The position numbers and the translations under genes were made by a program. A stretch of DNA of 26,604 bases from a virus. The stretch's first letter is position 1, and each line of letters opens with the position of its first letter. The DNA is taken from the IMG/VR virus record IMGVR_UViG_3300044655_001469, positions 1 through 26,604 of that record; one strand, given 5' to 3'. The notes under the pieces are model-generated. The model was not told the origin of the DNA. It did not search any database and saw nothing but the letters and a program-made list of their open reading frames with translations. Positions 6,798 through 24,672 of this stretch are shown one piece after another.

Positions 6798-8632
6798 TGG
6801 CAACACTTGCAGAACTGTTGAAAAATCTTATCCCCGAGCAACAGCATTATATTGCTAGATTGGTTGCTTCTTTGCCTGAAACTGAGGGGGGGTTAAACCT
6901 TCCGTTATCTAATACAGCGATGGATCGCGCAAAAGCAATGGGTGGAATTGACGTGTATCATGGAACTGCCCATGATATACGCAACATTGATCCTAAATTG
7001 TTTGGTTCTAGCACGGGCGCTGAAAGCGCAAAAAAGGCATTTTGGACAGTTAGCGATCCAAATACAGCTAGAGGATATGCTGAATATGCCGCAAGGGACG
7101 TGCCTATTAAAAAATTACTTGCTTTAGCTGAAAAAGCAGAAAAAAAAGGCGATTGGGACTTATATGACGATTATATTCGTCAAGCAGAAGAATATGAAGC
7201 GGCAATGGCAAAAGAGCCATTAGCTGGACAGAATATTATGCCATTAGTTCAATTAGGACCCAAAAAACTTACTAAAGATTTAGGTGGTGCTGAATTTACA
7301 GACGTACAGTCAGAGATTAATCAATACTTAAATAAAGCAAAATCATCGGGGGCAAGTGAAGCGGTATTACAAAACCTTGCCGATGACGTGTATTTTTCAG
7401 GTAGGCCAGCAACCCATTACGCTACATTTAAACCCGAATCATTACGTTCTCGCTTTGCTGCATTCAATCCTTGGCGCAAGCATGAGGCTGATCTTCTAGC
7501 ATCACATCCACTAGCCTCTGCTGGTGCTGCGTTAGCTGCTACAGGCGGTCTATCTGGAATGGCGCGAGATTACTTGGGTCAACCGCATGACCCCGGCAAC
7601 CTTTATGCCCAATATGGGATGGATGCTCCCATGACTCGCGGAGAGGCTCTGAAAGGCGCTGTAAGCGCTATTCCCGGCATAGGTGAGGTGTTATCAGGGG
7701 TAGAGGGATTACAAGCCGCTACAGAAGGGAAATGGGGTGAAGCAGGGTTAGGTGCATTAGGCGCTGCTGGGCTAGTGCCTATGGGCGGTCTTGGAGGAAT
7801 GATTCGTGCTTCACACGGATCACCTCATGCGTTTGATAAATTTCAAACCAGCAAGATCGGCACAGGTGAAGGAGCGCAAGCGTATTCGCATGGGCTGTAT
7901 TTTGGTGAGGGTTTTGATAGTCCTGTAGCTCAAGAATATAAAAAGCAATTAGCAGGAGACGTGTTTAATGTTGCTGGTAATGTTTTTGATCCATCATCGC
8001 TACAGCACTTAAATGTAAGATCGCTTACTAATAAAGGAAATTTAGAGGGAGCAATCAATAAAGCAAAAGAAATTGCCTCAAGTGATTCGCCTGTTGCTGG
8101 GCTTGCTAAAAACGATTTATCTATTCTTTTAGATATTCAAGCAAAAGGTGGATTAACTCCAGCACAAGGCTATTTATATAACACGGAGCTGAAATGGCCT
8201 AGCGCAGCAAAAGAAGCCTCTGACCCATTGAGTCCAGAACATTTTATGGTGTGGGATGCGCCATATCAACAGCAAACACAAAACATTCAAGACCTGCTCA
8301 AGCAAGAGTATGAAGACGTGTTTAACAAGCGCTCTGGTATCCGTAAGAGCTTACAAGAACGGTTTGCAGCACAAGGCAAAGCGTCTCCTATGCGGTCAGA
8401 AATGTCACCGATTACAGGTCAACAATTGTATGAACATTTGGCTGCTAAATTTAACTCTCCTGCACAGGCCAGCCAATACCTAAGCTCAATCGGTATTCCT
8501 GGCATGAGATATTTAGATCAAAGCTCAAGACTGGCTGGTAAAGGCACACAGAACTATGTTGTGTATGATGAAAACATTCCTGAAATTGTCACCAGAAACA
8601 ATATGAGCTTGTCTGGTTTGCTACGCAAATGA
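6797..8632 (+). CDS. Polyvalent protein with two ADP-ribosyltransferase-like domains
   Basis: A 611-residue protein with two domains of the ART type found in phage 'polyvalent' proteins. Domain 1 starts at IDVYHGTAHD (His55), continues through FWTVSDPNTARGYAEYA (83-97) and closes with THYATFKPESLRS (206-218). Domain 2 starts at RASHGSPHAFDKF (His340), has IGTGEGAQAYSHGLYF (354-369) and closes with RYLD and NYVVYDENIPEIV (586-598). Between them (about 236-335) lies a Gly/Ala-rich hydrophobic stretch. In the family these domains are thought to move ADP-ribose from NAD+ onto targets. Its place among virion and ejection genes suggests it is packaged and delivered with the DNA; this is inference. 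It may instead be structural or catalytically dead. Parts of the gene, such as 6930-7400, look richer in A/T than neighbours, hinting at separate origin. Coupled on both sides by TAATG and ATGA. Confidence 0.75.
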   Translation: MATLAELLKNLIPEQQHYIARLVASLPETEGGLNLPLSNTAMDRAKAMGGIDVYHGTAHDIRNIDPKLFGSSTGAESAKKAFWTVSDPNTARGYAEYAARDVPIKKLLALAEKAEKKGDWDLYDDYIRQAEEYEAAMAKEPLAGQNIMPLVQLGPKKLTKDLGGAEFTDVQSEINQYLNKAKSSGASEAVLQNLADDVYFSGRPATHYATFKPESLRSRFAAFNPWRKHEADLLASHPLASAGAALAATGGLSGMARDYLGQPHDPGNLYAQYGMDAPMTRGEALKGAVSAIPGIGEVLSGVEGLQAATEGKWGEAGLGALGAAGLVPMGGLGGMIRASHGSPHAFDKFQTSKIGTGEGAQAYSHGLYFGEGFDSPVAQEYKKQLAGDVFNVAGNVFDPSSLQHLNVRSLTNKGNLEGAINKAKEIASSDSPVAGLAKNDLSILLDIQAKGGLTPAQGYLYNTELKWPSAAKEASDPLSPEHFMVWDAPYQQQTQNIQDLLKQEYEDVFNKRSGIRKSLQERFAAQGKASPMRSEMSPITGQQLYEHLAAKFNSPAQASQYLSSIGIPGMRYLDQSSRLAGKGTQNYVVYDENIPEIVTRNNMSLSGLLRK

Positions 8633-20544: not shown

Positions 20545-22131
20545 ATGAACTACGATAACATTCCTAATGAACTCAAGGACTTAGATAGATGGGTAGTGTG
20601 GCGAGAGGGTAAAATCCCTTACGACGCTAAGTACATAAACAGCCGTGCTAGCTCAACCAATCCCGACACATGGGCCAGCTTTGACCAAGCAACTACCGCT
20701 TATGAGGAGTGTGATCAGGCGCTAGGGATAGGCTTTGTACTGAATGGGGATGGGTTGTGCGGGATAGACATTGACCATTGCATCACTGATGACGTGATCG
20801 ACCCTGCTGCCATGCAATTGCTAGACCATCTGGGTGCGAGCTATGTCAGCATCAGCCCATCAGGGAAAGGCCTCAGAGCCTTTGGATACGCTACCCCATT
20901 GCTTCAAGGAGTCAAGGGAAGCTATGACGGACTGTCCATAGAGCTATACAGTAGCCAGCGTTATTTGACCATCACTGACAATATAGTGCGCACAGCTCCA
21001 GTGTGTCCGCTCCAGCACTTCGAGAGCCTTGCTCACTACATTAGGTCTAGTAGCCATGTAGATACCGCAACAGGGGAGATTGTAGATAGACAGCCACATG
21101 AGCGCCACGCAGAGCTCGTTAAGCGCATTCTTAAGGGCGACACATATCATGATAGTCTAAGAGACCTTGCCGCGTCTCTATGCGCCTCAGGAGCGCACAA
21201 CGGTGCTGTTGTGAATCATCTCAAGGCCTTAATGCAAGCCAGCGATGCAGAGCATGACCAGCGCTGGAAAGATCGCTATAAACAGATTCCTGCGTTAGTG
21301 CGTAGCGCTGCGCAGAAATATGTGACCTTCGATCCATTTGCACCTGCACCTGTGAGAGAGGACGAGGACCTGTTTGATTCTATTGGTGCTGTCTTTGCGA
21401 ATGAGATTTCAACAGACTTTAGCCCACCTGATGAACTGGTTGAGGACGTGCTGATTGCTAGAAACACAAGCATCTTATATGGGAACTCAAACTCAGGTAA
21501 GACCTTCTTTGCCCTGAACATGGCGGCTGCTGTTAGTCGCGGTACAGATTTTTTGGGGAAACGCACGCAGCAAGGCATGGTTGTATATATGGCGACTGAA
21601 AGCCCTGAGACCGTCAGAACGCGCTTGCAAGCGTACATGAAGTATCACAACTGCATTCTGGATAATCTGCTGCTCATTCAGAAGCCGGTCAACTTTTTCA
21701 CTGATGACCGCGACGTGGAACGAGTGATAGCAGCTATCAAGAAGGCGGAGGACATGAGAGGCTGCAAAGCAGCGCTAATCATCGGAGATACACTCGCTCG
21801 GATCAGTTCCGGTGCGAACGAGAATGCGGGTCAAGACATGGGGCCGGTTATGAACCGCATTGATTATCTTATGAACAGCACTGTGAGCTCAGTGATGATG
21901 ATTCACCACTCTGGGAAAATGCAAGCGTCTGGTGCTAGAGGATGGTCAGGTATACGTGCATTCGTAGACACTGAGATTGAGGTTACTGACGATGAGGGTG
22001 TTCGCAAGGCTGAGATAATGAAACAGAGAGCGCTAGGCAGCAAAGGTGATGCTCTATTCTTTGACCTCCACGTAATGCATATGGGTTTTAACCGCTGGGG
22101 TCGGCCTAGTAATACTTGTGTGATTGCTTAG
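20545..22131 (+). CDS. Primase-polymerase / RepA-type helicase fusion
   Basis: A 528-residue replication protein. The N-terminal 180 residues are a PrimPol-type domain: LDRWVVWREGKIPYDAK, TWASFDQA, GIGFVLNGDGLCGIDIDHC with catalytic-type Asp75 and Asp77, SISPSGKGLRAF, and IELYSSQRYLTIT. A linker follows. From about residue 300 there is an AAA_25/RepA-like hexameric helicase ATPase: Walker A GNSNSGKT (about 313-320), MATESPETVRTRL, Walker B region AALIIGDTLARIS, and MMIHHSGKMQASGARGWSG. It would lay primers and unwind DNA at the phage origin. The AGAGGA ribosome site stands before ATG 20545. It is divergent from the recombination operon and followed by hairpins. Confidence 0.85.
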   Translation: MNYDNIPNELKDLDRWVVWREGKIPYDAKYINSRASSTNPDTWASFDQATTAYEECDQALGIGFVLNGDGLCGIDIDHCITDDVIDPAAMQLLDHLGASYVSISPSGKGLRAFGYATPLLQGVKGSYDGLSIELYSSQRYLTITDNIVRTAPVCPLQHFESLAHYIRSSSHVDTATGEIVDRQPHERHAELVKRILKGDTYHDSLRDLAASLCASGAHNGAVVNHLKALMQASDAEHDQRWKDRYKQIPALVRSAAQKYVTFDPFAPAPVREDEDLFDSIGAVFANEISTDFSPPDELVEDVLIARNTSILYGNSNSGKTFFALNMAAAVSRGTDFLGKRTQQGMVVYMATESPETVRTRLQAYMKYHNCILDNLLLIQKPVNFFTDDRDVERVIAAIKKAEDMRGCKAALIIGDTLARISSGANENAGQDMGPVMNRIDYLMNSTVSSVMMIHHSGKMQASGARGWSGIRAFVDTEIEVTDDEGVRKAEIMKQRALGSKGDALFFDLHVMHMGFNRWGRPSNTCVIA

Positions 22132-22198
22132 GTAACATAGCTAATGTTACGAGAGAGTGGGGGGGGTCCCGCCCATCAGCGGGTACCCCACTCTCTCG
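22132..22198. repeat. Tandem hairpins between convergent genes
   Basis: First, GTAACAT-AGCTA-ATGTTAC (22132-22150), a perfect 7-bp stem. Then CGAGAGAGTGGGG (22150-22162) pairs perfectly with 22186-22198, with an inner 5-bp stem CCCGC/GCGGG around CCATCA. They lie directly after the primase-helicase stop and before the convergent HNH-type gene. No T-tract follows, so they may act as a bidirectional stop or processing site rather than a standard terminator. Confidence 0.7.
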
Positions 22199-22211
22199 CT
22201 AATGCACAGAG

Positions 22212-22682
22212 TTAGACAGTTACAGGTGGGCTTAGTCTGTCTTTTATACCCATAAACACGGACAGCGCCTCTTCATGAGAAGGGAACCTTCCAATCACAG
22301 CGTCATTACCGAATAGGCTGATTACAACCTCAAAGGTATTCAGCTTATCTATATATTCTATCCTTGGATTATATATCGGATGCTCATGATTGAGATAATA
22401 CTCATAAACAGATATATCTCGTAAATTCTCAATCCTATTATTCATTGGATCACCGTCAATATATGTCAGTGTACCAAGCGGTAGCCTGTTATTGTGATAT
22501 AGATATATCAAATCTTGTGACTTATAGGATATACTGTTAACAGTAATTATCCTGCAGTTCTTGTCCTTCTTACTGTAACCAGCTAATGAGCCTGCTGGTC
22601 TGCTTGCGCAGGTTTGTACGTTCCAATATAGCTCTCCTTCTTTATAAGTAAAGAGCGCTCTAGCTACTAATCCTGTAAGCAT
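22212..22682 (-). CDS. HNH-type homing endonuclease relative, motif histidines lost
   Basis: A 156-residue protein whose middle matches the phage HNH_3 pattern: DLIYLYHNNRLPLGTLTYID then GDPMNNRIENLR. Homing endonucleases of this type carry a His-Arg at the first helix and Asp/Asn-His before the IxGD turn. Here, in numbering from the first ATG at 22688, these are Gln58-Asp59 and Thr75-Tyr76. The late Asn residues and the NLR end are kept. The nuclease is therefore probably dead or works differently. The start is the second ATG (22682), which has AGGAG at 6 bases; the first ATG touches the AGGAG. It lies alone between palindrome-rich non-coding stretches, as free-standing homing genes often do. 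Confidence 0.7.
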   Translation of the reverse strand: MLTGLVARALFTYKEGELYWNVQTCASRPAGSLAGYSKKDKNCRIITVNSISYKSQDLIYLYHNNRLPLGTLTYIDGDPMNNRIENLRDISVYEYYLNHEHPIYNPRIEYIDKLNTFEVVISLFGNDAVIGRFPSHEEALSVFMGIKDRLSPPVTV

Positions 22683-22794
22683 AATCATCTCCTGTCAAAG
22701 AGTAGTCGTTGTGGGAGCGAGACTGCTGACTGACTAGATCAGCACCATGTCGACTGGTTGTCTCGCGGAAGAAGCGTATCACGTATATATATGA

Positions 22795-23045
22795 TCCGGC
22801 AAGCCCGCCGAAGGCATAGGGCTTGACGGGAGCCTGTATCAATAAGACTAATTGGTCTAAGTGTGTCCGTCCGTCCCGGGAAGTGGTTCCCGGTCCGGAC
22901 ACTTAGCCTTGTTAGCGCTTGCACTAATTGCTGGACTAAGCCTTGTTTAGAGCTTGCTCTTTCTCTTGCACATAGAGGTGTAAAAGCGTCCCCCCCTTGC
23001 GGCTTTTGAGAAAAGAGCAACAGGCTAGGACGCTGTGGAGCGTTG
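22795..23045. other. Candidate structured non-coding element
   Basis: No credible gene covers this stretch, but it folds on paper into several helices. CAAGCCC-GCC-GAA-GGC-ATA-GGGCTTG (22800-22825) is a nested hairpin. AGCCTGT (22831-22837) pairs with ACAGGCT (23020-23026). CTAAGTG...CACTTAG (22857-22906) has an inner perfect CCGGGAA/TTCCCGG stem. TTGCTCTTTCTC (22954-22965) pairs with GAGAAAAGAGCAA (23008-23020) with one bulge, enclosing TTGCAC/GTGTAA and AAGC/GCTT hairpins. ACGC/GCGT ends it (23030-23043). The set suggests an RNA or an origin-type element. Strand is unknown, and no known RNA family was recognised. Confidence 0.45.
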
Positions 23046-23317
23046 GTCACTGCTACTGAAACATTTAGAATGCTGCCTAAACCGTTATCGAGGACCGACC
23101 GACCCCGCGCGTCCCGTAGGAGCGAGTTTACGGATTGATTACCGAAGGGTACAGGATGATGGCGCTAAGGCCGATTAAAGAGCTATCCTGATCCTCTTGA
23201 TCGGGAGAGAGGTTTCCCGACTGCGTGCGAGCGTTACGCCGTATGCCTATGTTGGCTGGGGGTCAGTCCCAACCGTGTGCTATTCTAACACACACCTTCA
23301 ACAGCTTGTCAACCCCT
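23046..23317. other. Non-coding stretch with hairpins before rusA-type gene
   Basis: No convincing gene was found. It carries TCGGGA...TCCCGA (23201-23220), CCGTA...TACGG in the 23114-23133 area, and GTTGG-CTG-...-CAG-TC-CCAAC (23251-23273), the last shortly before the RusA-type gene. It is presumably the leader of the rightward gene chain; no convincing sigma70 boxes were seen. Confidence 0.4.
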
Positions 23318-23683: not shown

Positions 23684-23877
23684 CGCATGTATCAGAGTAT
23701 AAACCCTACTGGCGACACGTAGAGGACGGTCCCTACCCCAAGAACGCTAAGTGCCTATGGAAGACCGACCTAGGTGCTGCTACTATCGGAGTCTGGTATC
23801 CAGACAGCCAGTGGGTGTGGTGGTGTCCCCTACCGTCCCATCACCCCAAGGATAGGGAGCGGAGGTTGCGTGGGTAA
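23680..23877 (+). CDS. Trp-rich small protein, unknown
   Basis: A 65-residue protein starting at the ATGA overlap with the resolvase stop. It is unusually rich in Trp and Pro (YKPYWRHVEDGPYPKNA, GVWYPDSQWVWWCPLPSHHP) with a basic end. It looks like a compact beta domain, but no family was recognised. An ATG four codons upstream is also possible. Confidence 0.55.
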   Translation: MTHVSEYKPYWRHVEDGPYPKNAKCLWKTDLGAATIGVWYPDSQWVWWCPLPSHHPKDRERRLRG

Positions 23878-23992
23878 GCGGCTAGAAGTGGAGGGTAAGG
23901 TGTATACACATTGGACCGTGATCGGGGAATCTGAGCCTGCTAAACACACGCCAGAAGACAAGGCGTGGATACTGAGTCAGTCCAATGCCTAA
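23870..23992 (+). CDS. Truncated paralogue of the zinc-ribbon gene at 24445
   Basis: A 40-residue ORF from GTG 23870, with GGAGG just upstream and overlapping the previous stop. It begins MGKRLEVEGKVYTHWTVIG, then ESEPAKHTPEDK. The first 23 residues match the 75-residue protein at 24445 (KRLEV-x-G...WTVIGESEP), and the DNA is also alike (GGACCGTGATCGG in both). The Cys-rich half of the full copy is missing. It may be a decayed duplicate or a short functional form. Confidence 0.5.
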   Translation: MGKRLEVEGKVYTHWTVIGESEPAKHTPEDKAWILSQSNA

Positions 23993-24443: not shown

Positions 24444-24459
24444 AATGCCTAAACGACTA
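24444..24459 (+). repeat. 16-bp direct repeat, right copy
   Basis: AATGCCTAAACGACTA, identical to 23984-23999. Here it covers the start codon and first codons of the intact 75-residue zinc-ribbon gene. Confidence 0.8.
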
Positions 24460-24672
24460 GAGGTAGCTGGTACGATGTTTGGAAGCTGGACCGTGATCGG
24501 AGAGTCTGAGCCTGTGGACTACATCAAGAAAGGGAGGCCGGTTCAAGCAAGGGCTGTTGTAGTCCGATGCGATTGTGGTACAATACGCTCCGTCCTGCTG
24601 CATAACCTATGCAGTCGGCGCAGTAAATCCTGTGGTTGCAGGGGTAAAACGACAACCAGAGTTTATGGGTGA
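24445..24672 (+). CDS. Small zinc-ribbon protein (CDCG...SCGC type)
   Basis: A 75-residue protein: MPKRLEVAGTMFGSWTVIG, a basic linker, then VRCDCGTIRSVL and SKSCGCRGK. The C-x-C-G...S-C-G-C pattern is common in small phage proteins and in the N-terminal parts of some HNH/AP2 proteins, where it is thought to bind zinc and DNA. Here it stands alone. GAGGAAG precedes the ATG. A truncated paralogue lies at 23870. The stop shares TGATG with a doubtful ORF after it. Confidence 0.65.
   Translation: MPKRLEVAGTMFGSWTVIGESEPVDYIKKGRPVQARAVVVRCDCGTIRSVLLHNLCSRRSKSCGCRGKTTTRVYG

Follow-up and report, generated by a model that had tools for sequence, protein, structure and literature searches.

An apparently undescribed three-way-junction leader RNA before phage homing-endonuclease genes, next to a strongly folded, variable and probably untranslated region

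Results

In the window (the whole stretch of viral DNA analysed here, 26,604 nucleotides), no gene lies between the HNH-type gene on the minus strand (22212-22688) and rusA (23318 onwards). A preliminary description of the sequence took about 250 bases of this gap, hereafter the flagged stretch, for a structured non-coding RNA or a replication origin. The main features are listed below (L004 and L007 are related loci).

22212-22688, minus strand: ORF of an HNH-type homing endonuclease, likely start 22682 (MLTG...)
22795-23045, no strand assigned: flagged stretch, gene-free, with a strong minus-strand fold; 22795-22943 lineage-specific, 22944-23045 partly conserved
22865-22905, no strand assigned: long GC-rich hairpin
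23146-23289, minus strand: nearly invariant non-coding block, candidate 5' part of a leftward RNA
23282-23312, minus strand: promoter TTGACA-N19-TAGAAT (N18 in L004 and L007), single-copy in each of the seven records

The elements described for the flagged stretch could all be located: the nested GAA-loop hairpin (CAAGCCC-GCC-GAA-GGC-ATA-GGGCTTG), the bulged helix with two enclosed hairpins (about 22952-23023), the 7-pair helix AGCCTGT/ACAGGCT, the CTAAG/CTTAG copies and the near-repeats (22901-22913 versus 22935-22947, 92%). The stretch is overlapped by two short ORFs, 80 and 103 aa long, on the minus strand, but a PHROG search returned no match for either and neither has coding potential, in agreement with the view that no credible ORF covers it. 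A fold no better than that of shuffled sequence had been named as an argument against the proposal; on both strands the 251 nt do better than their dinucleotide shuffles (minus strand, MFE -98.3, z -4.9; plus strand, MFE -96.1, z -3.2; 0 of 200 shuffles equal in each case). Among same-length tiles across the whole window, the minus strand of the stretch ranks first of 106 (z -6.0) and the plus strand eleventh of 106 (z -2.8), and therefore the fold signal is real and the minus strand is indicated.

RusA relatives are encoded at seven IMG/VR loci, and six contigs belong to the same phage group: in this region, L002 and L003 hardly differ from the window, and L004/L005 and L006/L007 are two further lineages. 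A search of named phages and plasmids for DNA relatives gave nothing useful. Nucleotide matches to 22795-22943 are absent from both L004 and L007, while 22944-23045 is identical at 82 of 98 positions in L004 and at 59 of 99 in L007, the latter with 63 gap columns. The hairpin near 23026-23043 contains a compensatory pair between the window and L004, and in both L007 and L004 the place of the window's hairpin at 22865-22905, relative to GCTTGCTCT, is taken by a long hairpin of another sequence. Because relatives keep so little of the span, the idea of one conserved RNA or origin extending over the whole of 22795-23045 is unsupported; "structured non-coding sequence" holds for the neighbourhood, and not for the exact 250 bases as a conserved RNA. 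On our reading of the sequences, the conserved RNA is a 50-nt junction (22717-22766, minus strand) together with the block 23146-23289, and the flagged interval lies between them.

The primase-rusA gap (22131-22943 in the window, 4888-5560 in L007, 5428-5630 in L004) is an insertion hotspot: the window has an HNH gene there, L007 carries another HNH gene that is 31% identical to it, and L004 lacks an endonuclease gene at this place. At 22150-22200, 3' of the primase gene, the window has a very strong hairpin lacking a T tract (CGAGAGAGTGGGG...CCCCACTCTCTCG), and in its relatives this place is occupied by ordinary terminators with a T tail and another sequence. Elsewhere, the segments 23875-23939 and 24450-24514 give crosswise matches, about 75% identical, to the same places in relatives, which suggests a duplicated segment in the small downstream ORFs.

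The block 23146-23289 is identical at 144 of 144 positions in L004 and at 142 of 144 in L007 (each comparison having two single-base gap columns), the adjoining rusA being 92% and 77% identical, respectively. A search of GTDB genomes with a 21-mer from the block returned no match, and a 25-mer and a 19-mer occur, among viral contigs, in the same six contigs only. At its 5' end, the hairpin GGUUGGG-ACUGACC-CCCAGCC is fully paired only on the minus strand. Near-invariance, promoter and minus-only hairpin together make a leftward RNA the simplest reading of the block, but the near-invariance may also reflect strong DNA-level selection (an origin) or recent gene conversion. An N-terminal extension of RusA was considered and rejected, since single-base indels between lineages shift the frame. 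It is plausible that block and flagged stretch form one leftward-transcribed untranslated region; only position, strand and promoter consensus join them as one RNA.

Directly before the HNH start, 29 nt outside the flagged span and on the minus strand, lies the junction, with the following elements.

22773-22796, minus strand: position of the -10 box, weak in the window (TGATACGCT); TATAAT, TATGAT, TATACT or TAAAAT in other members
22717-22766, minus strand: three-way-junction leader RNA, with an independent covariance-model match and two-sided pair changes
22766-22760/22723-22717, minus strand: helix P1, followed by unpaired A22759
22758-22755/22747-22744, minus strand: helix P2, loop GUCGACA
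22743-22738/22730-22725, minus strand: helix P3, loop CUAGUCA (22737-22731), then A22724
22703-22707, minus strand: D1 (GACUA), complementary to the P3 loop, a candidate pseudoknot
22689-22702, minus strand: hairpin P4 (CUCUU-UGAC-AGGAG), whose 3' strand is the Shine-Dalgarno and whose loop UGAC is D2

The different HNH gene of L007 is preceded by the same architecture with different stems, and so is an HNH gene in a phage that is related only distantly (L042/L050). A covariance model (R1) built solely from the L007 and L042 leaders matches the window (E 1.1e-8), the leader of a GIY-YIG gene (1.7e-8) and another HNH leader (4.3e-7). Later iterated models hold 31 rows, or 17 distinct sequences, over which 13 of the 17 pairs show two-sided changes (12 of 17 in a five-sequence alignment) and 95.5% of cells are paired, values that none of 500 shuffles reached, with the caveat that the leader alignments were fitted to the model and that the main GIY-YIG group is closely related. 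When partners are slid by 1-3 columns, the covariation collapses. It is on covariation that the case for the leader is built, since the window's -10 box is weak and its 81-nt leader, folded by itself, is only modestly more stable than shuffled sequence (z -1.6). A -10-like box is present 4-8 nt upstream of P1 in most members, and therefore the leader would form the extreme 5' end of the message.

In every member examined, the apical loop of P3 is complementary to two stretches 3' of P1', D1 and D2, the second about 10 bases past the first and directly before or within the Shine-Dalgarno hairpin (in the window, in the P4 loop). The pairings are short (4-6 bp), and each loop's own pairings with D1 and D2 come out as the single best among 720 and among 5040 reassignments, the larger set covering seven loop classes scored by longest run and by site number. 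P4 pairs the Shine-Dalgarno in the window and in most members, and is weak in some (L007). Palindromic P2 loops (GUCGAC, UUCGAA, UUGCAA, AUGCAU) are missing in two junction classes (L050b/L238 and L016b), so that dimerisation is not general.

None of the 4227 families of Rfam 15 rises above its own gathering cut-off, with nothing relevant at E up to 10, and ARAGORN reports no tRNA or tmRNA; a known RNA, tRNA or tmRNA was rejected on this basis. The idea of a T-arm or permuted tRNA, which came from the GGUUCGAAACC loop, was dropped since P2 loops vary. A literature search found no description of such a leader, which is weak evidence, most subscription papers lying outside its coverage. The leader (22689-22766) appears to be new as well as, in terms of sequence comparison, well supported.

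The leader stands before homing-endonuclease genes of two families, HNH (PHROG 99, HNH_3) and GIY-YIG (PHROG 314), an arrangement present in some 25 contigs of phages as well as in Proteus phage ZX7. When 24 whole records were searched, 20 of them yielded a total of 25 matches, and the leader is carried by 21 of 30 GIY-YIG relatives, the nine others, more distant, lacking it. Phage ZX7, the one cultured carrier identified, is absent from every covariance model, and its leader was found by model search at E 4e-9 (L209 305-388, that is, vB_PmiM_ZX7, MZ424863.1, 4058-4141). The annotated start of its endonuclease, QXO10329.1, falls inside the leader RNA, and the true start is likely 84 nt downstream (MSNNFYVYLHK). 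All strong matches whose context was read lie 20-40 nt upstream of a homing-endonuclease start; the weak ones examined (E above 0.1) have no such gene behind them and look like chance. The leader is missing at the HNH or GIY-YIG genes of T5-like H8, Skate, Valrath, KpV52 and rhizobial phages, and a 20-mer of it was not found in GTDB genomes. A degenerate pattern scan returned, among the matches listed, mostly coding sequence (one conserved protein, for example) and only three new loci that passed the model. The first-pass genome search missed the window's own leader, which cmsearch found, so that its negatives are weak. In L193-L197, a sequence resembling the 3' part of a tRNA (GGGTTCAAGTCC...CCGGCTCCA) lies about 60-90 nt upstream of the leader, which suggests that this endonuclease cassette sits behind a tRNA gene.

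In the HNH protein of the window, QDL and TYIDGD replace the HRL and IDHIN of its relative, so that the HNH histidines are lost, and the protein scores just under the Pfam HNH_3 cut-off. The endonuclease is therefore probably inactive, a decayed protein behind a leader RNA that stays intact.

Discussion

We consider it probable, from comparison of these genomes, that, on the minus strand, the sequence between about 23312 and 22689 is a heavily folded untranslated region ahead of the homing-endonuclease gene, with a cassette-borne translation-control leader at its proximal end and the variable flagged stretch in its middle. The proximal part (22766-22689) would be the conserved leader RNA and would belong to the endonuclease cassette, whereas 22795-23045 would lie between this leader and the invariant block with its own leftward promoter, its hairpins being most likely part of the leftward transcript, or its end. 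Sequence comparison shows the predicted junction shortly downstream of a -10 box, complementarity of its P3 loop to D1 and D2, and a hairpin, P4, that hides the Shine-Dalgarno and has D2 in its loop. Transcription would start at P1, and the junction would present the P3 loop to D2 in the P4 loop, keeping the Shine-Dalgarno closed; the alternative partner would be D1, adjoining P4. By this choice, the leader could lower, set or switch translation of the endonuclease, and kissing of two transcripts through palindromic P2 loops may also occur. That the leader controls the amount of endonuclease made is probable; that it is a portable two-state expression switch (P3 loop on D1 versus D2), possibly tuned by P2 kissing and carried in the mobile cassettes of unrelated nuclease families, is a more tentative proposal.

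Other readings of the region deserve consideration. A free-standing leftward non-coding RNA of at least 400 nt (from about 23275 to 22865), of which the flagged span would be the 3' half, could be envisaged, and we regard it as possible without favouring it: the promoter is conserved and present once per genome, the 5' part hardly varies, the minus-strand fold is the strongest of all tiles and the compensatory pair with L004 falls within it, but only three lineages are available, much of the middle is replaced in L007 and an intrinsic terminator is not clear. The flagged hairpins might be merely terminators or insulators between convergent units, as three lineages having long GC-rich hairpins of different sequence at the same place would indicate; this is rather doubtful, however, since no T tract follows the hairpins and a terminator scan of the region returned none.

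An unlikely explanation, in our opinion, is that the primase-RusA intergenic space, including the invariant block, is a phage replication origin or control region whose hairpins are DNA elements. The location between the primase-helicase and RusA genes fits such a role, as do the 144 bp almost unchanged beside a RusA that is only 77-92% identical and the four GGGAATCGGTTAG repeats between primase and RusA in the distant relative L050. Against this, the window's region has no iterons, the GC skew shows no inflection at the flagged span, the flagged stretch itself is not conserved, a leftward promoter precedes the block and one of its hairpins is better paired in the minus-strand RNA. The hallmarks sought in the region (initiator repeats, a strand-switch signature) were not found, and the earlier suggestion of an origin at the flagged span thus finds no evidence, there being neither shared iterons nor a skew inflection. 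In L050, besides the four GGGAATCGGTTAG-type repeats, the stretch 6805-7025 contains a single inverted partner as well as TTTTTTGTCG repeats, and it looks iteron- or operator-like. As for the leader, passive inheritance with one ancestral endonuclease, rather than a functional RNA, seems to us highly improbable: the nearly identical leaders of the main GIY-YIG group add little, it is true, but thirteen pairs have two-sided changes, the loop-D1/D2 matches track each sequence and two different nuclease families lie downstream.

The untranslated region with its proximal leader, which we prefer, can be compared with known systems. The preQ1-II type riboswitches are likewise compact three-way-junction pseudoknots near a Shine-Dalgarno; the leader, however, has no Rfam match and its neighbours are nucleases, not queuosine genes. 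HEARO and the omega RNA of IscB-type systems are, like the leader, structured RNAs beside an HNH-type nuclease gene, but the leader has only 50 nt, matches no Rfam family, accompanies small homing nucleases and stands before GIY-YIG genes as well. Hairpins that sequester the ribosome-binding site are described for the phage homing-endonuclease genes I-TevI/II/III and segB of T4 and mobE of Aeh1 (PMC2988022). The likeness is clear, since a phage homing endonuclease lies downstream and its Shine-Dalgarno is paired in an RNA hairpin, here P4. What differs is that the 5' leader of the endonuclease itself contains a conserved three-way junction with loop-receptor pairing, and that HNH and GIY-YIG genes have this leader in common. 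In the T4 type, moreover, the hairpins form on long upstream transcripts, and the gene's own late promoter gives a transcript too short for the hairpin, so that its ribosome-binding site is free (PMC2988022), and because of this the leader is not a T4-type arrangement: judging from predicted start sites, the gene's own transcript would hold the entire leader because the -10 boxes lie upstream of it. The seg43 hairpin of Aeromonas phage 25 is another stable structure (PMC2988022), immediately upstream of a ribosome-binding site that it leaves uncovered; it differs in being a single hairpin in one phage, no downstream receptor site being described in PMC2988022.

Conclusions

How free-standing homing endonucleases are expressed without harm to the phage is mainly known from the single hairpins of T4-like phages. 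A covarying RNA element common to two nuclease families would indicate a common, transferable control device. The leader model is a search tool for such genes, and the regulation is directly testable with reporters.
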